Source of the DNA: Magnetococcales bacterium
GTDB taxonomy: Bacteria > Pseudomonadota > Magnetococcia > Magnetococcales > Magnetaquicoccaceae
DNA length: 64,000 nt
Direction: 5' to 3'
Assembly (NCBI GenBank): GCA_011089965.1
Contig: JAANAU010000005.1
Location: forward strand, 1 to 64,000
The translations under genes and the position numbers were made by a program. This document shows, piece by piece, positions 49,590-63,359 of this stretch (positions within the stretch are counted from its first letter, which is position 1; each line of letters begins with the position of its first letter). The notes under the pieces were generated by a model that worked only from the letters and a program-made list of their open reading frames with translations, made no database searches and was not told the origin of the DNA.

Positions 49590-50434
49590 GCGGGCATGGC
49601 CTCGCCTCCGGACGGACACGGAGGGGCTGTCAGAAACGAGGTGCCATCCGGACGCCAGCACTGACGCAACACTTTGCCCCCTCCGCTGGTTGTGGTTGCC
49701 GCAGTGGCAGGAGCAGCCGGAGGCGGCTCCAGGAGTTTTTGACGCCGGACAGGTGGAGCGGCCGAGTCGGACGGTGTGTTTTTTTTCACCTTTTCCGTAC
49801 GCATCTCCGGAGGAGGCATCCTGCTCCCATCCTGCCCCATGGATTGTTCCTGGTTGCGCCGCACAACCGGGATCAACAGTTGCCGCTTGGCCAGGTCCAC
49901 ACGCCAGGCACCAAGCTGCTCCAAGGCCGATGTCCCCAGCAAAGGGGTCGCCTTGGCCGGGGTGACGGCCACCGTGACATTCCGGAGCACCCGGGAGCCG
50001 ATGCGCAAGGAATCCAGGCGCGCCACGGGATGTTGAGCACTGGAGCCATCGGCCAGGGTGGCCTTCGCTGTACCAAGCCAATCCTCGGCACGCAACGCCC
50101 CCTGAATGGTGAGTTTGTCAATCAGATCACTGGGCACCGTCACCAGGTTGGCTCCGGTATCGATCAGAAAATCCACGGTCATGCGCTGATTGATCATGGC
50201 CGGGATCCAATACTGCCCACGAGCACCTTTGGACAGCAGCGGAATCACCTCATCGACAGGGGGGGGATCGCGATCCCGTTCGCCAGGGGCGCAGGTCAAG
50301 CTGCGCACGACCGTACGGCCATCAGGCGTCACGCAGGTGCGCACCTCGGAGGCATCCGCCGACCCGGCTCCTGCTGCTGCCAGCAACCCGCTCCACACCG
50401 CACAGCGTGCCAACCACAACCGCCGCGCAGACAT
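49574..50434 (-). CDS. Secreted retropepsin-like aspartic protease
   Basis: 286 residues. An N-terminal signal peptide of about 28 residues is followed by a short segment with two cysteines (RTCVTPDGRTVVRSLTCAPG). The retropepsin fold has its catalytic motif FLIDTGANLVTVP and the flap/hydrophobic sequences LGTSALEQLGAWRVD (clan AA, DUF/gag-asp type). A proline-rich linker leads to a second, similar cysteine segment (QCWRPDGTSFLTAPPCPSG). The two end segments resemble DUF4124-type repeats. It should dimerise to be active, in the periplasm. It shares ATGA with the upstream phosphatase gene. Confidence 0.75.
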   Translation of the reverse strand: MSARRLWLARCAVWSGLLAAAGAGSADASEVRTCVTPDGRTVVRSLTCAPGERDRDPPPVDEVIPLLSKGARGQYWIPAMINQRMTVDFLIDTGANLVTVPSDLIDKLTIQGALRAEDWLGTAKATLADGSSAQHPVARLDSLRIGSRVLRNVTVAVTPAKATPLLGTSALEQLGAWRVDLAKRQLLIPVVRRNQEQSMGQDGSRMPPPEMRTEKVKKNTPSDSAAPPVRRQKLLEPPPAAPATAATTTSGGGKVLRQCWRPDGTSFLTAPPCPSGGEAMPAQRQE

Positions 50435-51102
50435 CAGATCCCCACCACTGGCAACAGATCCGGCAACTGCTCCAACCAGTAATCCGGATGTGCCCGGGCC
50501 AGACGGATGCGATCATGACAACCATACGTCACGGCTGCACTGCGTACCCCGGCATGACGGGCCATGATCAGATCATAATCGGTATCCCCCACCATCAAGG
50601 TACGATCCGGGGCGCACAGGGTTGCAGCCAGGATCTGCTCGATCATGGCGGGATGGGGTTTGCTCGGGGCCTGGTCCGAGGTCATCAACACGGCAAACAA
50701 CCCCTCCAGACGCTGCTCCCGCAAGGTCCGCTCCAACCCGCGCAAGGACTTGCCGGTCGCCACGGCCATGGTGACGCCCTGATCGCGCAACTGCTCCAAC
50801 GTGACGCGCACCCCTGGGAACAAAGGAGTCGTCAACTCACCCCCATCGGCCAGGTGTTGATAATGGCGTTTGTACGCCCCCACGGCCTGATCGAGCAGAG
50901 CGGGAGAACCCTCCGGCAACAAAACGGCCATGGCCTGATGCAAGGACAAACCCACCACAGCCGCGATCTGCTCCCGTGACACCTCCGGCGCCCCATCCAT
51001 TTCGGCCAGCGCCAGTCGGGCCGCATGAACAATCCCATCCAGACTGTCCACCAGCGTGCCATCGCAATCGAAAACGACCAAATCAAAAGCCAATCCGGGC
51101 AT
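50434..51102 (-). CDS. HAD-superfamily phosphatase (phosphoglycolate phosphatase-like)
   Basis: 222 residues from ATG 51102 with GGAGG upstream. HAD motifs: FDCDGTLVDS (nucleophile Asp), VATGKS (motif II), KPHPAMIE (motif III Lys), VGDTDYD (motif IV). A helical cap lies at about 16-85. The substrate is not certain: Gph, PpaX and beta-phosphoglucomutase share this pattern. It is translationally coupled to the protease downstream. Confidence 0.85.
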   Translation of the reverse strand: MPGLAFDLVVFDCDGTLVDSLDGIVHAARLALAEMDGAPEVSREQIAAVVGLSLHQAMAVLLPEGSPALLDQAVGAYKRHYQHLADGGELTTPLFPGVRVTLEQLRDQGVTMAVATGKSLRGLERTLREQRLEGLFAVLMTSDQAPSKPHPAMIEQILAATLCAPDRTLMVGDTDYDLIMARHAGVRSAAVTYGCHDRIRLARAHPDYWLEQLPDLLPVVGI

Positions 51103-51614: not shown

Positions 51615-54600
51615 CTATCGAATCAGCAATAAAACCTGTTCAATCTGCTGTCCCAACCGGACAACAAATGCACGACTCTCATCCCAGTCTGCCATCTCCA
51701 CCCGGCCCTTGAATTTGATGGCCTGTATGGCAATCTGGTTCGCACCAATATCGTTCGAGATTTTTCTCAACACCTCCACCATCTGAATGGCCTGAGCAGT
51801 ATTCTTTTGGGCCATGGCTGCTTGTAACGATTCAAAAATTTGCGGCGCTTCGTTCATGAAAACATTTTTTGCATGAGCCAATGTCTCGGCATCGACCTGC
51901 ACATCTTTCAGAACCACAGCGTTCTCGCCACGCTTTCTGGGTTTGGTAAATGGTTCGATGATCTGGAGCAACTCAACCGGGCGATACGGTTTACGCAAAA
52001 AGCCGTTCATGCCGATTGCCAAACATCGCTGCTCTTCACTCTTCAGCGCATTGGCGGTCACGGCAATCACAGGAATCTCCGGATTGACCGTTGCCGAAGA
52101 GATGGATTGCCGTATTCGTTCGGTGGCTTCAAAGCCATTCATGACCGGCATTTGCAGATCCATCAACACCACATCAAAGGCATACTGCTGCTGTTCAAGC
52201 AGCAGTATCGCCTCCCCTCCGTGATTGGCAATGGTGACAATATGACCTGCCTGCCTTAAAATGCTGGATGCAAGTTGTTGATTGGAGATCAGATCTTCCA
52301 CCAGCAAAATGCGCATCGGCATGATATCCGTGCGACGTTTGATGGCACGATTGTGTGGTGCGCTGTCGCTGGCAATCGGCACCCGCCCAAGAATTTGATT
52401 GAGGCATTTTAACAGCTGGAAACGCCGCACCGGCTTTTTCAACGAAAGGGCACCCTGCAACCAACCATGACGCTCAACGGCATGCATCCCCATGTTGGTT
52501 GGCAGCAACACCACGATGCCACGATAACCCGCATGACCTTCCATCCGTTCGGCCTGAGGCCATTCCTGCCGCAACAACACCTCATCCAACAAGAGTGCAT
52601 CAAAAGGCTGTCCAACCTCACGGGCCTGGTCAAGCCGCGTCAACACTTCATCCGGATCCCCCACCACCTCAAACCCGGCCCCAAAACCAGCCACCATGTC
52701 GCACAGATTCTCTCGACCCATGACTGCACCACCGCCAATCAATACCCGCACATCCGCAAGCAGTCGTGCCGGAGGGCCATTCTTCTCCGCACGTTCATTT
52801 CGGATCATATGGTCAGGAATATCTTTCTGGACCCTCTCACCAATTCCCAGACGAACCGTAAAATGAAAAACACTGCCCTGACCGACACAACTCTCAACCC
52901 ACAGTTTGCCGTTCATCATCTGCACCAGATGCCTGCAAATGCTCAAACCAAGGCCGGTGCCACCATATTGACGCGATGTGGAATCATCAACCTGACTGAA
53001 ACTGTCGAATATCATGTCCAGCTTGTCAGCCGGAATCCCGATACCGCTGTCCATGACTGAGACATGCAAGACAATCGACTGTTGATCTGTTGGAGCCGAT
53101 TCGGTCTGCTCTATACGCACAGCCACAAAACCCGTATGGGTGAATTTGATGGCATTGTTGATCAAGTTGATCAGGATTTGTTTCAGACGCAACGGATCGC
53201 CGATCAAAGTCTCAGGCAAATCCCACGCAATATGACAAAACAGATCCAATCCCTTTTGATGGGCCTTGATGGACAGGGTCGTACAGGCATCTTCCATCCG
53301 GCCACACAGATCGAAAGGAATCTGCTCCAGAGTCAAATGACCGGCTTCGATCTTGGAAACATCCAGAATATCATTGATAAGATCCAACAAAGACAAAGCC
53401 GCATTGGAAACGATCTGTAAATTGCTTTGTTCTTCCTCGCGTGACAAGGAACCGGACAGAATCAGATCGGTCATTCCAATGATGGCATTCATGGGACTGC
53501 GAATCTCATGGCTCATATTGGCCAGAAAGGCACTCTTGGTCCGATTGGCTGCTTCGGCTGTCAACTGTTTCTGTTCCATCTGGAACGCTGCCAACCGCTG
53601 CTTCAGAATTTCTGCGGCATTGCGCCTGAGGGTTACTTGCGCCCGAATGCGTGCCATCAACTCTTCGCGCTGAAACGGTTTGATCACATAATCCACGGCC
53701 CCCAGACGCAAGGCACTGGAAATGGCGGAAGTTTGATCCCTGGCAGAAAGCACGATGACTGGCGGAGGTTGGGGATCGATCCTGGTTTGCAAATCGGCCA
53801 GGACATCATATCCGGAAATTTCCGGCATCATCAGATCCAACAACACCAGATCAACCCCCCCCTTCTGAAGCAGCTCCAGACATTGTTGTCCGTTTTCCAG
53901 CTCAATGATCTGACAGAAGTGGGAGAGATTGGCCCGGATCACCTCCCGGTTGATGGCATCGTCATCCACCACCAGAATGACGGCCTCCAGTTGGCTCTCC
54001 TTCTCCTGGCCGACAATTTCCGACAAAAGCGGCACAGGCGCTGAGGTCGACTCTGGCAAAGAGGGTGACACGGGCACAACGGCTGGCACAACCGGCAGCA
54101 TCTCCCGTCGTTGCCAGAATGCCTCCAGCATCTCCTGGGTGACATCCTCTTGCAAGGGCAGCAGCACCGTAAACACCGTACCCACCCCAGGCGTACTGGT
54201 CAGGCGAATGATTCCACCCAAGGATGAAACGTATTGTTTCACAATGGCCAATCCCAGTCCTGCACCTTCATGGGTACGATTCTGGGAAGCAAAGCCCTGC
54301 TGAAAGCGATCAAAAACCTTTTCATGAAATGCCGGGTCAATGCCGACGCCGCTATCCTCCACCGCAATCCCCACGGCAAAGCCATCCAGTGCAACCATCC
54401 GCACATGCACCCCTCCTGCATGGGTGAACTTGACAGCATTTCCGATCAGATTCATGAAAACCATATCCAGGGCAGTGGGGTCTGCAAGGATTGTCAGACC
54501 GTCATCCCCATGAAACTGAAGAGCAATCCCTTTGGTTTGGACGGTATGTTCAAAACGGGCCAACAATTGATCAAAAAAATCTTTCAAAATGACCGGGATC

Positions 54601-56003
54601 TGCCTGCTCTTTCCCTGTTCCTGTTTTTGTGCAGCGAAATTCAAAATCTGTCTGGCCAACTGCAACAGACGTTCGGCTGAAACGATCATTTGGGATAAAG
54701 GTTTCTGGAAAGCCTCAGGAAAAAGACCGTAAGCCCCATCCCCCAACGCTCGTCCCAGACCCAGAATCCCATTAAGAGGAGTGGTGAACTCATGGGTGAT
54801 ATTGGCCAGAAAGTCATCCTTCATCCGGTCAAGTTCCATCAGTTTCTGGTTCTGGCGCTGTATTTCATAATATGAGTTATTAAGATCCTCTACCATGGTA
54901 TTGAAATTCTGGGCCAGTGATGCGAGTTCCTGCATGCGCCCCAGATCGATCCGCGTCTCCAGAGCACCAGTCCCCACCTCCTGGGCTGCACGGGTGAGAT
55001 GCAGGATGGGATCCAGCAGAATCCGCTTGACCGAGACATAGATCAACATCACGACCAACAGAATGCTGACCAGGGTAATTCCGGCCACCATCCAGCCCAA
55101 AGGACGGGCTGTATTGTCATACTCCTCCTCCCACAACAGGGCCATGAGGTACAGAGACTCCCCCAGAGCGATCCCTTTCAGCAAGGCGGGCTTGGCCAAT
55201 TGATTGGTACTGGTCAGCCTCTCCTGGTTATCGGAATGGATCGCCTGGTTGATCAGGGAGATCGGCAACGAATCGGAGAGATTGGCCCAAGAGGGCGAAA
55301 AAATAACCTTTCCCTGATGATCGGTGACAAAAAGAAACCCGCTTTTTCCAATTCGGGTCATTTCAATATCTTCAGTAATGAATGTCGGTCTTACTGTCAT
55401 TGCAAAAAAACCACGAAACGTCTCCGGTTGGGTCGGATCCTGACTCACGTCGCGCGAAAAAATCTTCTTGGCTGCCAGAAAAGCCCACTCACCGTTGTTC
55501 GGATTGAAGAACGGTTCCAGAAACACCCCTTTCGGATGATTGAGGAGGCATTCAAAACAGGGGGCTTTCCATGAACGGGTCAAGGGAGTGGCACGATTCC
55601 CCTGGATGAAACGGGCATTCTCCCGACCATCTGGCGTCAGAACACGGATTTCGTAATAATTCGGATAGGACGCAGCATAACTGGCAAACAAATTCATCAA
55701 GGGAAGATGCAGTATTCCGTAGCGGTTCTCCTCATCTTCGCTGCTGAAATAATCAGCAAGCAACTGCCCCCCTGAAAAGAGATCGGTATTGGCCTTGATA
55801 CTGGCAAACTGAGCGCCGATGTCCCCCTGGGTAAGGCGCAAAAGATTGTTCACCTCACCGATGGCCTGCCTGGTGGCGGTTTGGGACAGATAATCACGCG
55901 CGAGCCAACCCACGAGCATGAGAGGGACAGTGACCAGGGGCAGCAGCACCAACAGCAACCAGGTCCGCAGTTTGATCCCCTGTGCGCGTGTTTGCTTGGA
56001 CAT
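51615..56003 (-). CDS. Dual-kinase hybrid sensor with three receiver-like domains and a degenerate Hpt
   Basis: 1462 residues from ATG 56003 (five bases after the upstream stop); ATG 56027 would overlap. Order: membrane helix 14-35; periplasmic Cache-like sensor to about 310; second helix near 315-335; HAMP; kinase core 1 (ITHEFTTPLNGILGLG, NLIGNAVKFT, GAGLGLAIVKQY); receiver 1 (VVDDDAINREV, LVLLDLMMPEISGYD); kinase core 2 (SHEIRSPMNAIIGMTDLI, NLINNAIKFT, GTGLGLSICRHL); a degenerate receiver lacking the N-terminal acidic pair (VLIGGGAV); receiver 3 (LLVEDLISN, VVLMDLQMPVMNGFEA); and an Hpt-like helical end where the phospho-His position is Glu (MVEVLRKISNDIGA). It is paired with a periplasmic binding protein gene. 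Confidence 0.9.
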   Translation of the reverse strand: MSKQTRAQGIKLRTWLLLVLLPLVTVPLMLVGWLARDYLSQTATRQAIGEVNNLLRLTQGDIGAQFASIKANTDLFSGGQLLADYFSSEDEENRYGILHLPLMNLFASYAASYPNYYEIRVLTPDGRENARFIQGNRATPLTRSWKAPCFECLLNHPKGVFLEPFFNPNNGEWAFLAAKKIFSRDVSQDPTQPETFRGFFAMTVRPTFITEDIEMTRIGKSGFLFVTDHQGKVIFSPSWANLSDSLPISLINQAIHSDNQERLTSTNQLAKPALLKGIALGESLYLMALLWEEEYDNTARPLGWMVAGITLVSILLVVMLIYVSVKRILLDPILHLTRAAQEVGTGALETRIDLGRMQELASLAQNFNTMVEDLNNSYYEIQRQNQKLMELDRMKDDFLANITHEFTTPLNGILGLGRALGDGAYGLFPEAFQKPLSQMIVSAERLLQLARQILNFAAQKQEQGKSRQIPVILKDFFDQLLARFEHTVQTKGIALQFHGDDGLTILADPTALDMVFMNLIGNAVKFTHAGGVHVRMVALDGFAVGIAVEDSGVGIDPAFHEKVFDRFQQGFASQNRTHEGAGLGLAIVKQYVSSLGGIIRLTSTPGVGTVFTVLLPLQEDVTQEMLEAFWQRREMLPVVPAVVPVSPSLPESTSAPVPLLSEIVGQEKESQLEAVILVVDDDAINREVIRANLSHFCQIIELENGQQCLELLQKGGVDLVLLDLMMPEISGYDVLADLQTRIDPQPPPVIVLSARDQTSAISSALRLGAVDYVIKPFQREELMARIRAQVTLRRNAAEILKQRLAAFQMEQKQLTAEAANRTKSAFLANMSHEIRSPMNAIIGMTDLILSGSLSREEEQSNLQIVSNAALSLLDLINDILDVSKIEAGHLTLEQIPFDLCGRMEDACTTLSIKAHQKGLDLFCHIAWDLPETLIGDPLRLKQILINLINNAIKFTHTGFVAVRIEQTESAPTDQQSIVLHVSVMDSGIGIPADKLDMIFDSFSQVDDSTSRQYGGTGLGLSICRHLVQMMNGKLWVESCVGQGSVFHFTVRLGIGERVQKDIPDHMIRNERAEKNGPPARLLADVRVLIGGGAVMGRENLCDMVAGFGAGFEVVGDPDEVLTRLDQAREVGQPFDALLLDEVLLRQEWPQAERMEGHAGYRGIVVLLPTNMGMHAVERHGWLQGALSLKKPVRRFQLLKCLNQILGRVPIASDSAPHNRAIKRRTDIMPMRILLVEDLISNQQLASSILRQAGHIVTIANHGGEAILLLEQQQYAFDVVLMDLQMPVMNGFEATERIRQSISSATVNPEIPVIAVTANALKSEEQRCLAIGMNGFLRKPYRPVELLQIIEPFTKPRKRGENAVVLKDVQVDAETLAHAKNVFMNEAPQIFESLQAAMAQKNTAQAIQMVEVLRKISNDIGANQIAIQAIKFKGRVEMADWDESRAFVVRLGQQIEQVLLLIR

Positions 56004-56007
56004 GACG

Positions 56008-57075
56008 TTATTGGGGAATCGATTCATTGAGCAAACCGCGCAAAATCTCCTTGAAACGCCGATCAATCTGCGGGGGCGGCTTGATGAGGAATTCCGACCG
56101 CTTCAGTATGGCATCCGGAGGATAGATTACGGGATTGTTTTTGTGTTCTGGTTTCAATAAAAGCTCTGCTGCCTGATTCACGGTGGCATAATGAAGATGA
56201 TGGGCCAATTGGGCCGCGTTGTCGGGTTCGTGCAGAAAGTCGATAAACGCATAGGCCATGGCCTTGCGCGGTGAACTTTCCAAAACCACCAGGCAATCCA
56301 CCCAGAGCATGGTCCCCTCTTCGGGCACCACGTAATCGATTCTGGGTTCGAGTTCCTTGAGCGAAATGGCATCCCCATTATAGAGCATGGCCATCCATAC
56401 TTCTCCTGTCACCAAGCCCGATGTTTTATCCAAAGAGGGATAGCCATAGGCTCTGACAAAGGGCTTCTGCGCCATCAACAGCTTTTCTGCCTGTTCAATG
56501 GCGGCCTCCTCATAATGATTCCAGGTGTGTCCCTGAATTTTCATGGCCACCCCCATCAAATCCCGTGACTCTTTTTCCATGACGATCCGTTGGCGTAATT
56601 TTTCTGCGGGCTGCAACAGTTGCTGCCATTTGGTGATGTTGTCCGCCACCAGATCCGTACGATACCCGATGCCAAGAGTGCCCCAGAATATGGGTACTGC
56701 AAATTTTTCAAGATCAGGATAAGCTGTGATCCAGCGTGGCGCAATGTGTTTCGTGTTGGGCAGGAGCCTGGTGTCCAGCCTGGCCAACCATTTGCGATTC
56801 ACATAGCTTTGCACCCGTTCCCCACTGACCACGAAAAGATCAAATCCCTTGCCCCCGGTGCGGGTAAGCAATTCATCCCGGGTTTCGTCGGTCTCGAAGT
56901 TGACCTCCCTGACATGAATTCCGGTTTTCTTCTCAAACTGTTGCAACAACTCCGGATCCATATATTCTGACCAGTTGAGCAGAACAATTTCTTTTTTTTT
57001 GTTCGCCTCAGCCATACCAAAAAGCGAATAAAACAGACAACAAACAAGCATGGCAACAAAAAGATGATGACGCAT
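56008..57075 (-). CDS. Periplasmic polyamine-type substrate-binding protein (PotD/PotF-like)
   Basis: 355 residues from ATG 57075 with AGGGGGGG upstream; the longer frame is unsupported. A signal peptide of about 24 residues ends near MAEA. The mature start IVLLNWSEYMDPELLQQFEKK, the VNFETDETRDELL and GFDLFVVSG segments, FWGTLGIGYRTD, and EGTMLWVDCLVVLESSPRK follow the spermidine/putrescine-binding family. No permease or ATPase genes are adjacent. The hybrid sensor kinase begins five bases after the stop, so the protein probably delivers ligand to that sensor rather than to a transporter (inference from context). Confidence 0.85.
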   Translation of the reverse strand: MRHHLFVAMLVCCLFYSLFGMAEANKKKEIVLLNWSEYMDPELLQQFEKKTGIHVREVNFETDETRDELLTRTGGKGFDLFVVSGERVQSYVNRKWLARLDTRLLPNTKHIAPRWITAYPDLEKFAVPIFWGTLGIGYRTDLVADNITKWQQLLQPAEKLRQRIVMEKESRDLMGVAMKIQGHTWNHYEEAAIEQAEKLLMAQKPFVRAYGYPSLDKTSGLVTGEVWMAMLYNGDAISLKELEPRIDYVVPEEGTMLWVDCLVVLESSPRKAMAYAFIDFLHEPDNAAQLAHHLHYATVNQAAELLLKPEHKNNPVIYPPDAILKRSEFLIKPPPQIDRRFKEILRGLLNESIPQ

Positions 57076-57373: not shown

Positions 57374-58411
57374 TCATGGCAACGCACTGCTGGCGCATGG
57401 TTCAATCAAGATCTTCAACGTGCCCGGTACAGCCGCATGCTGCAACGCTTCCAACGCCTGCTCCAAGGGATAGACCGCCTGGATCAATGGCTCCACATCC
57501 ACCAGACGCCGCTCCAACAGCCGCAAGGCAGCGGCAAAAGGACCGCACCGGGAACCGGTCAGCGTGATCTCATCCACCACCAGAGCGGCCAGATCCACGG
57601 CAACCGGAGAGAGATACGCACTTTTCAGAACAATCGATCCCCGTGGACGCACCAGACGCCGCGCCAGATGCCACCCCTCCGGAGTACCGGAACACTCCAC
57701 CACCAGATCCGCCCATCCCCACTCCGTCAATCCGGAAGCGCGCTCAACCAAAATGTTTCTTGCCTCCAGAAACGGCCTGGGACGAGCCTCACGCACCACG
57801 ACCGTCAAGACACACCCGGTCAAGGCCAACACCTGGGCCACCAGCAGACCGAGCTTGCCAGCCCCGAGCACCACCACCCGATCCGTCGGCCTGACATGAC
57901 GCTGTTGCACCACCTCCAGTGCCGCAGCCAACGGTTCGACAAACACCGCCACCCGATCCGCCATGGTCACCGGCACCCGATGCAGATTGGCCACCGGCAC
58001 AACCACCCACTCGGCAAACACCCCGTCCCGCTGACGAATACCCAACACCCGGCGTTGCCCGCAATGACCCGGACCGGTCTGTTGGCACCCGGCACACACC
58101 CCGCAACCCACCGTGATCTCTGCAACCACCCGGCACCCCACCCAGTCGGGCGCGCTGTCCGCCTGTTCCACCAGTCCGACAAATTCATGCCCCAACACCC
58201 CAACACCATCGGCATACCCTTGCAACATGGCCAGATCCGTGGCACACACCCCGGCCAGCAACACCCGCACCAACGCCTCACCGGGTCCGGGAACAGGCCG
58301 CAGCCAATCCGATTCCAACCGGAGTTGACCCAACGCACGCACGACAGCCCGCATCCGGGCTGTCGTTCCGCACCGCTCCTTTGAATCCGCATGGGGTTCC
58401 CGAACGCTCAT
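57374..58411 (-). CDS. Zinc-type medium-chain alcohol dehydrogenase (MDR)
   Basis: 345 residues from ATG 58411; ATG 58354 (MRAVVRALGQL) is an alternative that matches the usual MDR start. The N-terminal catalytic domain has GVCATDLAM, GHEFVGLV and the structural-zinc cysteine cluster CGVCAGCQQTGPGHC. The NAD(P)-binding domain has VVVLGAGKLGLLVAQVLAL. Catalytic zinc ligands (C, H-E, E) are present. The substrate is unknown; it is a sorbitol/threonine dehydrogenase-like member. It is transcribed toward the binding-protein gene, away from sco1. Confidence 0.85.
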   Translation of the reverse strand: MSVREPHADSKERCGTTARMRAVVRALGQLRLESDWLRPVPGPGEALVRVLLAGVCATDLAMLQGYADGVGVLGHEFVGLVEQADSAPDWVGCRVVAEITVGCGVCAGCQQTGPGHCGQRRVLGIRQRDGVFAEWVVVPVANLHRVPVTMADRVAVFVEPLAAALEVVQQRHVRPTDRVVVLGAGKLGLLVAQVLALTGCVLTVVVREARPRPFLEARNILVERASGLTEWGWADLVVECSGTPEGWHLARRLVRPRGSIVLKSAYLSPVAVDLAALVVDEITLTGSRCGPFAAALRLLERRLVDVEPLIQAVYPLEQALEALQHAAVPGTLKILIEPCASSALP

Positions 58412-58537: not shown

Positions 58538-59224
58538 ATGATCTCCTCGTTGACCCAGATCTCCCGACGTCAGGCCATCATGGGCGTGTTGATCAGCACC
58601 GGCCTCGGACTGATCGGATTGCGCATTTACAGCGGTCTCACCGGCCTGCCGCCTGATCCCACCCTGAACATGGACAAAGAGCTGGTAGGGGTCATGCTGC
58701 CTTCGCCCCGTGAGCTGCAACCCTTCACGCTCACGGACCACAACATGCAGCCATTCACCCCAAAACGGTTGCAAGGCAAATGGACCATCGCCTTCTTTGG
58801 CTACACCCATTGTCCGGATGTCTGCCCGGTCTCGATGGGACTGCTGGCCGAGGCATTCTCCATCCTGGAAAAACGTCCCAAAGCCATCCAGGGGGTCCAG
58901 GGGGTGTTCATCACCGTGGACACGGAACGGGACACCCCGGAACTCCTGAAAGCCTATGTCCCCTATTTTCACCCGGATTTTCTCGGGGTCACCGGCACCC
59001 AGGATGCGATCCACGCCTTTGCCAAACAGGTGGGAGCCTACTATGCACTGCCCCCGAAGTCCGACAACAAGGATGAATCGCAACTGATCAGCCACTCCTC
59101 GGTCTTCTTCCTGTTTGACCCCCAAGGTCGCTTTACCGCCCTGTTTCAACCGCAACTGCATCAACCTGCCATTATGGCAGAATTGTTCATCAAAATCCGC
59201 CAACATTATGGAGAATCCATATGA
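58538..59224 (+). CDS. Sco1/SenC copper chaperone
   Basis: 228 residues. An N-terminal membrane anchor follows a twin-basic segment (ISRRQAIMGVLI). A thioredoxin-like fold has the copper motif YTHCPDVCPVSM and the third ligand His in LISHSSVFFLFDPQGR. Sco proteins deliver copper to the CuA site of cytochrome c oxidase or act as a thiol reductase. It overlaps the next gene by four bases (ATGA). Confidence 0.92.
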   Translation: MISSLTQISRRQAIMGVLISTGLGLIGLRIYSGLTGLPPDPTLNMDKELVGVMLPSPRELQPFTLTDHNMQPFTPKRLQGKWTIAFFGYTHCPDVCPVSMGLLAEAFSILEKRPKAIQGVQGVFITVDTERDTPELLKAYVPYFHPDFLGVTGTQDAIHAFAKQVGAYYALPPKSDNKDESQLISHSSVFFLFDPQGRFTALFQPQLHQPAIMAELFIKIRQHYGESI

Positions 59225-59694
59225 AAAAATGGTCTGCCCTGTTCCTGGTGGGCGCAACCCTGCTGGCCACCCCGGCGACGGCTGAAAACAGCATCCATGT
59301 CACCGATGCCTGGATCCGGGCCGCCCCACCCGTGGCCCAGATGCAAGCCGGTTATCTGACCATCCAAAACCATGGCAAAAGCGAACAAAGCCTGATTGGA
59401 GCAACCTGCGCCTCTTTTGCCAAGGTGGAAATCCACGAAACCGTCCAGCACGATGGCCAAAGCCATATGCTGCCCAAGGCCAGCATACCCCTCCCGCCCG
59501 GTGCCAAGGTATCCTTCACCCCCACCGGCCTGCACCTGATGCTCATCAATCCGCAAACCACCTTGAAACCCATGGACAAGGTCGCCATCACCCTGAAATT
59601 CGCCGACGGCACCGAACTGCCGGTGACTGCTGAGGTACGGGCCGCAACCGGAGAAAAATCCAAAGGAGAAGCAGGCGGTCACTCCCATCACTGA
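59221..59694 (+). CDS. Periplasmic copper chaperone PCu(A)C
   Basis: 157 residues with a signal peptide ending near TPATA. The family motif is complete: VEIHETVQHDGQSHM then GLHLMLIN (His and Met copper ligands). The C-terminus has a HSHH tail. It passes copper to Sco1 or to CuA, and the ATGA overlap with sco1 supports cooperation. No oxidase structural genes lie in this window. Confidence 0.9.
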   Translation: MKKWSALFLVGATLLATPATAENSIHVTDAWIRAAPPVAQMQAGYLTIQNHGKSEQSLIGATCASFAKVEIHETVQHDGQSHMLPKASIPLPPGAKVSFTPTGLHLMLINPQTTLKPMDKVAITLKFADGTELPVTAEVRAATGEKSKGEAGGHSHH

Positions 59695-59750
59695 ACCGGT
59701 TGGCACCAATAACACTCTCCAGGTATTCTTTATTACAGGATCAGACCGGC

Positions 59751-62700
59751 ATGTCTGCATACCCGCAACGTTCGCATCCCCTCCTCTCCTGGTGGTCTTT
59801 CCCGACTGTGATGCTGGCGCTCCTTGGCTGGCTCTTTCTGATGCCTGGGCCGCTCTTTGCAGAAGAGGAGGCACCCGTCGATGATGGGGGCAGCATGCCC
59901 GAAATGTTGCAAGGAGTCGGAGGACAGGAAGCGGAAATCCTGAAACAGCTCAGTCCCCTCAGCCCATTGAAAGGTCCTCCGGGTGGCAATCTCGACCAGA
60001 TGCGCCAGCGTGACAGCAAAAAACAGTCCGGTCAAACCCTCCCCCCCCGTTCCTCAGGCGTTTCGCTGCTGGAGGCCGACTTTTCCCTGCGCGCCAAATC
60101 CTCACTGATCCAATTCGGCTACAACATGTTCCGTCAGGCGAAAGAGCGCACCGCACCTGTGGTGGGATCGGCCCCGGACTCCTATATCCTGGGCGTTGGC
60201 GATGAACTGTTGATCTCCTTCCGGGGACGCAGCGAAAAAAACACCGTCGCCAAGATCGACCTGGAAGGACGGGTGCTGATCCCCACCCTGCCCGAACCCC
60301 TGATTGCCCAGGGGCGCTCCTTTGGCGAATTCCGAGAAGAGGTGCGCGAAAAAATCCGCACCACCCAGGTTGGAACCGAGGTGTTCGTCTCCATCGGTGC
60401 CTTTCGCTTTTTCTCGGTCTATGTAATGGGCGAGGTGACCCAGCCCGGCATGCATCGGGTCACCGGATTGTCCACCCTGCTCGATGCGTTAAGCACAGCA
60501 GGCGGAGTCCGCAAAACCGGCTCGTTGCGCACCATCCAGCTCCATCGCCAGGGTCAGGTCCAAACCATCGATCTCTACTCTTTGCTCGGCAAAGAGGGGA
60601 GCGGTCAGGATCCGACCCTGGCTGTTGGAGATCGGATCGTGGTGCCGCCGATTGGTTCCGTGGTCGGCATCTCCGGTCTGGTCAAACGCCCCGGCATCTA
60701 TGAACTGCCCCCGGAACAAACCAATCTTCCCCTGAACACTCTGCTGGAGTTGGCAGGTGGACCGGTCTCACCCACCGGCAACCGCTTCTCCTTGTTGAAA
60801 TCCGATGCCCGGGATCGGGAAACCCTGACCGAAATCAATACCGCCAAACAAGCCACCATCAGCAACGGCAACATCGTCCTGGTGGAAGCCAAACTCGGTC
60901 CCAACCTGATGGGCGAGGTGGCATTGGAGGGTCATGTCAGCCGTCCCCACACCCGCTCCCTGGCCTCCACACCCACGGTACGCAGCCTGCTGGCCGATCA
61001 CGAACTGCTGCTGCCCGACCCCTATCTGCCCCACGGCGTGATCTATCGCACGGATCCCAAAACCCGCACCCGTCGTTTCATTCCCATTGACCTGGGATTG
61101 ATCGTTGCCCGGACCGAGCTGGATCAGCCGCTGATGAACCACGATATTCTCATCGTCTTGAGCCTGGAGGATATCCGGTTTCTTTCGTCCGAACGCCTGA
61201 TCTCGGTCTTAAGAAAAGAACCCGCCAAGAATCCATGTCTGGCCCTGACCCGGTTGGAAGCCACGGTCGCATCCTCAGATCCCACCCGTTTTTCCAACCT
61301 TTTTCAATTCAAAGAGACAGGAGTCACCGCCTCCAAAGGGACACCCGATGCTCAATTGCCCCCGCCCGAATCCTCAGACGCCTTGCGCCTGACCACGGCG
61401 ACACAACTTCAAGATTCCACACGCCTGAAAGCAGCCATTCCGGTTGCGGCACCCACGGGCACGGAACCGCCTTCACCTCCATGTCCGGCGATTTACAACA
61501 AATTTCCCGACCTGCTGCCAGTCCTGCTTGACAACTCTATTATTATCGAAGACAATGAAAAAAATCCAATTTTGTTTCCCATCCTGCCAGGAGCACGCAT
61601 GACGGACATCGTGGCCGTGGGCCAGGGCCTGGTAGGTACAGGGAAATTCGACAAAAATCTCTCCTTGAAATTCCAAATTGATCGTCGGCGCGGTGCCCGT
61701 GACAACACGCGTCGCATCATTGAAGTGCCGGTACAGGATTATACCACCTATGCCTTGCAACCCGGCGATGTATTAAACTTCAAGATCGGTCAGGTGCGCA
61801 TGATCGGCCATGTGACCCGGGAACAGCAACGCACGCTGCAATCGGTCCCCACGGTGCGGCACTTCCTGTTGGACAAGGATGTGATCAAATCGGATCCCTA
61901 TCTGCTGTTCGGAATGCTGCGTCGGGTTGATCCAACAACCCGCAACCAGACCTTGGCCGCAGTCAATCTCGATGCCATCCTGCACGATATTCCAGGCAGT
62001 GACGTGACACTCATGGACAAGGATGAGTTGGTCATCCTGTCGGCCCAGGACATCCGCTTTCTGGCCAACCCGTTGGTGCAAGGGGTATTGTTGGGCAAGA
62101 ATCCCCGCCAGGAGTGCCAGGCCCTGCGTCATCTGTCGGACCTGATGTCCTCATCCGACGCCTTCCGCTTCTCCAGCGCCATCAATCTCTCTTTAAGCGA
62201 ATTTGAACACGACAAAAGCTCGGCCAAAAAGGCGGCCGATAAAAACACCACCATGCTGGTGACCGAAGGGCCGACCTCACGCAAAAACGAATGCCCGCCC
62301 ATTTTTGAACGCTACCCGGAACTGCTCCCCTATGCCTTGGAGAATGCCACCATTCTCACCGGGGAAGTGCGCACCCCGGGCGTGTTTCCGATATTGCCTG
62401 GAACCCGGCTGGCATCGCTGGTGCAGAGCGGCGGAGGGGTCACCAAACGGGCAGACATGCGGCATGTGGAACTCTCCCGTTCACACCTCAACACCAGTCA
62501 GGGTGCATCCACCTCCCGTTCCGTCATGGATTTCACCAAGAGTGCCTTGGAAGAGTTTGAGCTTACCCCTGGAGATGTGTTGCGCTTCAATCCGATCTTT
62601 TCGGATCGGGAGATCGGTTATGTCCGTCTGGAAGGGGAGTTCATCCGCTCCGGACTCTACGACATCCGACGCAACGACAAGCTGTCCGACATCATGAGCC

Positions 62701-63359
62701 GTGCCGGCGGCATCACCGAACATGCCTACCCGTTTGGCGCGATCTTCACCCGCACCTCCATTCAACGCACCCAGAAGGAAAACTTTGAACGGGTGGCGCG
62801 GGAACTGGAGATGGGTCTGGCCGGTCTGGTCAACTCGACCAGCAAAGAGAAAGGCGATACCAACACCATCCTGGAAAATGCCAAAGGGATCATCACCTCC
62901 CTGCGGGCCGTGCAACCGCTGGGACGCATGGTGGTTCAGGCCGATCCCGCACTTCTCAAGACACAACCCGAACTGGACATCTATCTGGAGGCCGGGGATC
63001 GGCTGTTCATGCCCAAACGCCCCAGCGAAATCACCGTGACCGGTGCCATACTCAACCCCGGATCATTTTTGTTTGTTGCCAACCACTCACCCATGGATTA
63101 TGTCAAATGGGCCGGCGGCTTCAAGGATAACGCCAACAAGGGGGACACCTTTGTCGTGCTGCCCGACGGCAAAGCCCAGGCCATGTGGAGCCTGGCCAAC
63201 TGGTGGGATCAAGAGTCGGCTGCACTGGTGCCGGGCAGCACGATTGTGGTCCCTCTGGATCCCAAACCGTTCGAGATCATGGGACCCATCAAGGACGTGA
63301 CGCAGATTTTGAGTCAATGGGCGATCACCATTGCCTCGCTGTCCGTGTTGAGCAAATAA
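59751..63359 (+). CDS. Giant SLBB-domain polysaccharide export protein
   Basis: 1202 residues from ATG 59751 (AGGA upstream). A signal-like hydrophobic segment at about 20-40 precedes a linker. The polysaccharide-export domain (about 145-240: PDSYILGVGDELLISF, DLEGRVLIP) is followed by SLBB domains (VYVMGEVTQPGMHRVTGLST, GISGLVKRPGIYELP). Two further modules then repeat the series SLBB-like strand (EGHVSRPHTRSL; IGHVTREQQRTL), PDPYL/SDPYL, DLG/DAI, LSLEDIRFLS/LSAQDIRFLA, and a CP-x-I-[FY] segment (CPAIYNKFPDLLP; CPPIFERYPELLP). C-terminal SLBBs include VTGAILNPGSFLF. Typical Wza is about 380 residues, so this is about three times longer. It is likely an outer-membrane/periplasmic export scaffold for a capsular or exopolysaccharide. 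Partner genes are not in the window. Confidence 0.85.
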   Translation: MSAYPQRSHPLLSWWSFPTVMLALLGWLFLMPGPLFAEEEAPVDDGGSMPEMLQGVGGQEAEILKQLSPLSPLKGPPGGNLDQMRQRDSKKQSGQTLPPRSSGVSLLEADFSLRAKSSLIQFGYNMFRQAKERTAPVVGSAPDSYILGVGDELLISFRGRSEKNTVAKIDLEGRVLIPTLPEPLIAQGRSFGEFREEVREKIRTTQVGTEVFVSIGAFRFFSVYVMGEVTQPGMHRVTGLSTLLDALSTAGGVRKTGSLRTIQLHRQGQVQTIDLYSLLGKEGSGQDPTLAVGDRIVVPPIGSVVGISGLVKRPGIYELPPEQTNLPLNTLLELAGGPVSPTGNRFSLLKSDARDRETLTEINTAKQATISNGNIVLVEAKLGPNLMGEVALEGHVSRPHTRSLASTPTVRSLLADHELLLPDPYLPHGVIYRTDPKTRTRRFIPIDLGLIVARTELDQPLMNHDILIVLSLEDIRFLSSERLISVLRKEPAKNPCLALTRLEATVASSDPTRFSNLFQFKETGVTASKGTPDAQLPPPESSDALRLTTATQLQDSTRLKAAIPVAAPTGTEPPSPPCPAIYNKFPDLLPVLLDNSIIIEDNEKNPILFPILPGARMTDIVAVGQGLVGTGKFDKNLSLKFQIDRRRGARDNTRRIIEVPVQDYTTYALQPGDVLNFKIGQVRMIGHVTREQQRTLQSVPTVRHFLLDKDVIKSDPYLLFGMLRRVDPTTRNQTLAAVNLDAILHDIPGSDVTLMDKDELVILSAQDIRFLANPLVQGVLLGKNPRQECQALRHLSDLMSSSDAFRFSSAINLSLSEFEHDKSSAKKAADKNTTMLVTEGPTSRKNECPPIFERYPELLPYALENATILTGEVRTPGVFPILPGTRLASLVQSGGGVTKRADMRHVELSRSHLNTSQGASTSRSVMDFTKSALEEFELTPGDVLRFNPIFSDREIGYVRLEGEFIRSGLYDIRRNDKLSDIMSRAGGITEHAYPFGAIFTRTSIQRTQKENFERVARELEMGLAGLVNSTSKEKGDTNTILENAKGIITSLRAVQPLGRMVVQADPALLKTQPELDIYLEAGDRLFMPKRPSEITVTGAILNPGSFLFVANHSPMDYVKWAGGFKDNANKGDTFVVLPDGKAQAMWSLANWWDQESAALVPGSTIVVPLDPKPFEIMGPIKDVTQILSQWAITIASLSVLSK

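Follow-up and report, generated by a model that had tools for sequence, protein, structure and literature searches.

A PotD/NspS-like binding protein encoded beside a tandem hybrid histidine kinase in Magnetococcales: a probable two-gene sensory unit with phosphorelay output

The two genes described here lie on the minus strand of the window, by which we mean the whole 64,000-nucleotide stretch of a Magnetococcales contig (JAANAU010000005.1, here C2) that was analyzed. The upstream gene encodes a PotD/NspS-like periplasmic binding protein of 355 amino acids (P0002, 56008..57075, read from 57075 to 56008), and the downstream gene encodes a tandem hybrid sensor kinase of 1462 amino acids counted from the ATG at 56003 (P0001, 51615..56003). 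The original prediction had placed the two genes four bases apart, and the coordinates of the open reading frames agree, with bases 56004-56007 between them; two alternative in-frame starts of the sensor gene, TTG at 56066 and ATG at 56027, would make the genes overlap. A four-base gap alone is no evidence of partnership. Related pairs are also tight, with a possible receptor start at most 30 bases from the binding-protein stop in 61 of the 70 measurable cases, a count that favors small values because the first in-frame start codon from at most 30 bases ahead of the stop was picked. Judged by eye, the flanking open reading frames encode a HAD-type phosphatase (50434-51102) and an alcohol-dehydrogenase-type protein (57374-58411). 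Further along the window, we noted by eye an SCO1-like and a copper-chaperone-like gene (58538-59694) and a polysaccharide-export-like protein of 1219 residues (59700-63359). As had also been predicted, no ABC permease or ATPase gene adjoins the pair, and none of the eight BPD_transp_1 matches of the genome is located on C2.

The binding protein contains an SBP_bac_8 domain (Pfam, E 4.4e-30), preceded by a probable signal peptide at residues 1-25 (57001..57075, minus strand), recognized by eye from the hydrophobic start. Its closest relatives in the PDB by sequence search are of the PotD and PotF types. The structural matches of the predicted model (pLDDT 93.2) at ranks 1-30 are all of PotD, PotF, SpuD or SpuE type, and binders of GABA, agropinic acid and oligosaccharides are also among the matches. 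The NCBIfam PotD model scored 147 bits, below its cut-off of 582, and the protein is thus not a standard PotD. With NspS from Sinorhizobium meliloti, it shares 31% identity (E 1e-57); the NspS sequence used was that of strain Ak57, the gene of which adjoins a gene for an EAL-domain protein. According to PMC9993111, eight norspermidine contacts were predicted in NspS from Vibrio cholerae, and all of them are kept in S. meliloti. Seven of these eight positions match in our binding protein (W35, D63, F130, Y232, D235, W258 and D260) when mapped via the S. meliloti rather than the V. cholerae sequence, with the second position uncertain by one residue and acidic either way. At the eighth position, S84 is found where NspS has a contact aspartate.

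Three further residues mark the sensor-type proteins. Among the 95 sensor-associated rows besides NspS, R66 is present in 93, and R139 and W96 are present in all 95; NspS from S. meliloti has both arginines and lacks W96. R66 and W96 are absent from all nine transport proteins compared, and R139 occurs in a single one of them. Where PotD has the pocket residue W229, each of the 96 sensor-type rows has Tyr or Phe. The homology and the pocket residues together suggest a polyamine-like ligand. It is possible, though we find it doubtful, that the two proteins form a sensor for another cation, an amino acid or an osmolyte that fits the PotD-type fold. The GABA, agropinic acid and oligosaccharide binders among the structural matches, the differences from PotD at W229 and from NspS at S84, and the best match in the genome for nspC, the norspermidine synthesis gene, which at E 9e-5 stayed below the cut-off, would be compatible with such a ligand; the first thirty structural ranks and the seven matching NspS contact positions speak against it. 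The nspC result is uninformative as a clue to the ligand, as one of the 48 genomes of the order has a match over the cut-off. For Spermine_synth, we found three partial matches in the genome, two of them over the cut-off.

The sensor was predicted to be a dual-kinase protein with a large periplasmic domain between two membrane helices, and both features were borne out. Hydropathy placed the membrane helices at about residues 14-34 and 303-330, enclosing about 265 residues, and the Pfam domains identified were dCache_1, HAMP, HisKA with HATPase (present twice) and two receivers, with no match to GGDEF or EAL. The periplasmic sensor domain (residues 37-300, 55104..55895, minus strand, as are all features of the sensor) matched dCache_1 at 58.1 bits against a cut-off of 45. 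The AlphaFold model of residues 1-340 has a mean pLDDT of 89.6, and its matches to crystal structures of dCache domains reach a Z of 18.3, so the periplasmic part is a confidently predicted dCache fold. The HAMP domain (residues 327-375, 54879..55025; E 4.5e-9) is followed by the first histidine kinase (about residues 395-620, 54144..54821) with H404, receiver 1 (residues 676-787, 53643..53978) with D723, the second histidine kinase (about residues 823-1052, 52848..53537) with H832, and the last receiver (about residues 1230-1345, 51969..52316) with D1282. Both kinases have their N and G boxes, and the protein thus has the histidines, boxes and receiver aspartates that define a hybrid histidine kinase. 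The BarA, TorS and LuxQ models of NCBIfam match the kinase part, all below their cut-offs.

A C-terminal Hpt domain is optional in hybrid histidine kinases. Pfam found no Hpt match in the sensor, and a profile built on seven Hpt domains of related proteins detected a degenerate Hpt-like stretch at residues 1372-1428 (51720..51890) with E 0.0033 (Z set to 10,000). In this stretch, E1410 occupies the position of the phospho-acceptor histidine of the relatives, and we rejected a functional C-terminal Hpt in the sensor. A separate phosphotransfer partner is therefore expected.

The dCache domain might instead bind a small ligand of its own, with the binding protein modulating the response or adding a second input, which we regard as unlikely. 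Its structural neighbors include receptors for amino acids, choline, uric acid and uracil, and an acidic stretch and an NPDN motif are kept in most of the 47 aligned receptors, both of which would fit direct binding. In the window receptor, the corresponding residues 139-169 (55497-55589) are altered, with T, R and S in place of glutamates and N169 in place of an aspartate that is present in 43 of the 47 aligned rows. This apparent loss argues against direct binding, as far as it can be judged from the sequence. The closest relative of the window receptor (L066, the same stretch as L035) retains NPDN.

The partnership of the two genes can be judged from their distribution. Within the order, 22 of 48 genomes contain the binding protein (E <=1e-20), and the same 22 contain the periplasmic region of the receptor (E <=1e-15). 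These genomes hold 33 receptor regions, 28 of which adjoin a binding-protein gene, two of the 28 being fragments at contig edges. Two of the remaining five have no binding protein in the approximately 10 kb fetched around them (G032 on C40 and G027 on C122), one lies 8 kb from its binding protein, and two are at contig edges without one. The two receptors of the order without a neighboring binding protein count in favor of direct ligand binding by dCache. Two second-branch receptors that lack a neighboring binding protein (L171 and L172) have next to them a divergent gene encoding receivers and a kinase.

The wider scan of named genomes took the best 80 of 215 relatives; 15 of the 80 duplicated stretches that were in the set before and were dropped, after which the whole set comprised 94 distinct binding proteins besides that of the window. 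Of these 94, 88 adjoin a receptor that shares the periplasmic dCache region of the window receptor, in one case (L042) in a divergent arrangement. Four of the six without a visible receptor stop at a contig edge, and the other two have none adjoining: in L040 (genome G042), the binding protein is 8 kb from the receptor, and in L039 (genome G043), the receptor is on another contig. In a tree of 102 rows, the window protein, NspS and the 94 homologues (96 rows) were separated from six ABC-transport rows with support 100/99, the transport side being thinly sampled since its six rows were picked from the better plasmid hits. A search of plasmids with the periplasmic part of a Neptunomonas receptor yielded no match at E 1e-5. 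The original prediction of a binding-protein-dependent sensor, for which conservation of the pair across genomes had been proposed as a check, is thus well supported by the conserved pairing and co-occurrence, together with the co-divergence described below.

Several loci deserve a separate mention. In Halomonas (L086, L092) and Marinobacter (L100, L101, L109), two to three tandem binding-protein genes precede the receptor, or in L101 the contig end, as if several ligands served one receptor. Pairs in records titled Halobacteria archaeon (L102) and Klebsiella pneumoniae (L124) were placed among gammaproteobacterial ones on the tree, and these records are probably mislabelled metagenome bins. 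The genome of the window itself has a second, paralogous pair (L051, C20:98000-115000), where genes for a binding protein, a dCache-HAMP-kinase, a FIST protein, a hybrid kinase with PAS and Hpt domains, and a receiver-HD-GYP protein follow one another in a row. The kinase, receiver and HD-GYP matches of this locus recur in the same order in several related loci.

The binding protein could also be a stray transport component that works with an unlinked ABC transporter, the kinase being independent and its adjacency a matter of chance or shared expression. According to the abstract of PMC11113362, AgtS and AruS of Pseudomonas aeruginosa, the products of adjacent sbp and kinase genes, did not interact, which is a precedent for such adjacency, and the eight ABC permease matches elsewhere in the genome could supply the transporter. 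Contig C13 carries an ABC set, the ATPase of which reached 288 bits with the PotA model, where the cut-off is 355.6; no PotA in the genome exceeded this cut-off. The C13 set, however, has a binding protein of its own, another SBP_bac_8 protein encoded with the permease and ATPase. The identical distribution of binding protein and receptor over the 48 genomes, the 88 pairs among 94 homologues and the branch apart from the six transport proteins also oppose this explanation, which we hold to be very improbable.

Gene content around the homologues bears on the same question. Orthologues sitting with pot-type transporter genes and not with a kinase had been named as the observation that would speak against the predicted sensor; this layout was found in none of the 94 homologues examined. 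In one locus (L119, 2300-5640), genes for a permease and an ATPase of the Pot type lie upstream of the binding-protein gene, with the receptor still present. No Pot-type genes were found in the 17 kb surrounding the binding proteins of L039 and L040; the contig of L039 has two permease matches at a distance of about 10 kb. When 127 loci were searched by tblastn with 12 Pot-type permeases and two ATPases, L119 was the one sensor locus with a Pot-type permease, and each of the eight transport loci had one as well. Four of these eight had supplied query permeases, unlike L147, L151, L153 and L156. In seven sensor-side loci (L076, L096, L113, L126, L137, L143 and L175), the search matched an ATPase but no Pot-type permease; the ATPase match of L076 is some 300 bases away from its binding protein. 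Among eight plasmid matches that were opened, seven had permease and ATPase genes (six by annotation and L147 by similarity), and the eighth was an NspS-MbaA pair. Counted by annotation alone, all seven transport-type loci had permease and ATPase genes, a further point against a stray transport component. The potF locus of Klebsiella and the pot operons of E. coli have both. We rejected a transport role of the pair, considering the absence of a permease from the contig, of a PotA over the cut-off from the genome, and of Pot-type permeases from all scanned sensor loci except one.

The conserved input is followed by different outputs. Among 88 receptors, with output classes set by similarity to Pfam-checked examples, 47 end in GGDEF-EAL, two in GGDEF alone, 32 in a kinase and four in a SpoIIE-type phosphatase, and in three the output lies beyond the contig. 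On the best binding-protein tree, many inner branches of which are weak, parsimony requires at least eight switches of output, and the phosphatase form is nested within the Magnetococcales kinase branch. Comparison of the window with its nearest relative, L035, gave 69% identity for the binding protein, 61% for the periplasmic region, 60% for the second membrane helix and HAMP, and 33% for the first kinase. The L035 kinase is nearer to the second kinase of the window (45% identity), so that replacement of the output and loss of the first kinase both fit. Under either scenario, the break between the two receptors is located directly after HAMP. G042 and G043 have a tandem kinase layout like that of the window, with 50-52% identity in the first kinase.

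We compared the divergence of the binding protein with that of the two halves of the receptor. Over 33 kinase pairs, distances in the binding protein correlated with those in the periplasmic domain at 0.913 and with those in the kinase at 0.533; over 49 GGDEF pairs, the values were 0.850 for the periplasmic domain and 0.786 for the output, a small contrast. The observed correlations, which include shared ancestry, were reached in none of 2000 permutations. The co-divergence of binding protein and periplasmic domain points to contact between them, which also argues against a dCache domain that senses a ligand by itself.

The pair resembles the NspS-MbaA systems of V. cholerae and S. meliloti in having a PotD-like gene beside a receptor with two helices around a periplasmic domain, followed by HAMP, and the genes of those systems overlap or lie a few bases apart, comparable to the four bases in the window. 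MbaA, however, has GGDEF-EAL as its output, whereas in the window receptor this place is taken by two histidine kinases and receivers. The periplasmic region of S. meliloti MbaA matched our receptor profile weakly, in two short stretches with E 4.6e-4 (Z 10,000), while the periplasmic region of the window receptor is strongly homologous to those of GGDEF-EAL receptors, none of which, to our knowledge, has been characterized. Since the GGDEF-EAL output is absent, we class the pair as working like NspS-MbaA and not as a member of that system. With PotABCD and PotFGHI, the binding protein shares the fold and much of the ligand pocket, whereas the pair has no adjoining permease or ATPase. In LuxP-LuxQ and TorT-TorS, a periplasmic binding protein controls a hybrid kinase, and the families of binding protein and sensor domain differ from those of the window pair. 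The dCache_1AM amine receptors, as presented in PMC10104139, have the dCache fold and kinase, GGDEF-EAL or SpoIIE outputs; there, the domain itself binds the amine, whereas the window has a separate binding protein.

We conclude that the two genes probably form a sensory unit with an NspS/MbaA-like input module and a phosphorelay output, and we assign this reading a probability of roughly 0.7. The pair is real and probably functional. The data show the gene pair with its domains, its conservation and co-occurrence across genomes, and the range of outputs that follow one input; we infer the ligand, the docking, the direction of the response and the target genes. The binding protein would be exported and would close on a small cation, a polyamine being the likeliest ligand. 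By analogy with NspS-MbaA, the loaded protein would then dock on the dCache domain of the receptor encoded next to it, and the docking signal would be relayed by the second membrane helix and HAMP to the two histidine kinases. These may feed a phosphorelay via the receivers of the receptor, and, as its Hpt-like end has no histidine, the relay probably needs a separate Hpt or response regulator encoded at another place in the genome. The input half would thus be of the NspS-MbaA kind, where it serves c-di-GMP turnover, with a kinase relay behind HAMP in the present case. For V. cholerae, the proposed mechanism is that NspS loaded with norspermidine binds MbaA and that this switches the enzyme activities of MbaA (PMC8079147). 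The weak relation to S. meliloti MbaA and the interaction tests between sbp and kinase that failed elsewhere make this mechanism less certain.

A broader proposal, to which we give even odds, is that the binding protein and dCache-HAMP constitute a polyamine-responsive, portable input cassette that has repeatedly been joined to c-di-GMP enzymes, hybrid kinase phosphorelays and PP2C-type phosphatases. The genome of the window would then use one such cassette to drive the tandem kinase and a second to drive the row of genes ending in the receiver-HD-GYP protein.

Polyamine sensing by a hybrid kinase of this size had been called notable in the original prediction. Because the input half resembles NspS-MbaA, polyamine sensing by such a pair is already known and not new in itself; the unusual part is the kinase output. 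The open literature that we searched describes no kinase-output version of NspS-MbaA, and the publications found there for Magnetococcales with polyamines contained nothing on such systems by title and abstract. The window sensor looks like a rewired form of a known kind of sensor. Polyamine sensing via a periplasmic protein and an adjacent receptor has been worked out for NspS-MbaA and c-di-GMP. If our reading is true, the same kind of input would govern phosphorelays as well as phosphatases, for the most part in bacteria represented by metagenome-assembled genomes, and the naturally diverse parts that follow HAMP would offer ready-made chimeras for studying transmembrane signalling by a docked binding protein.
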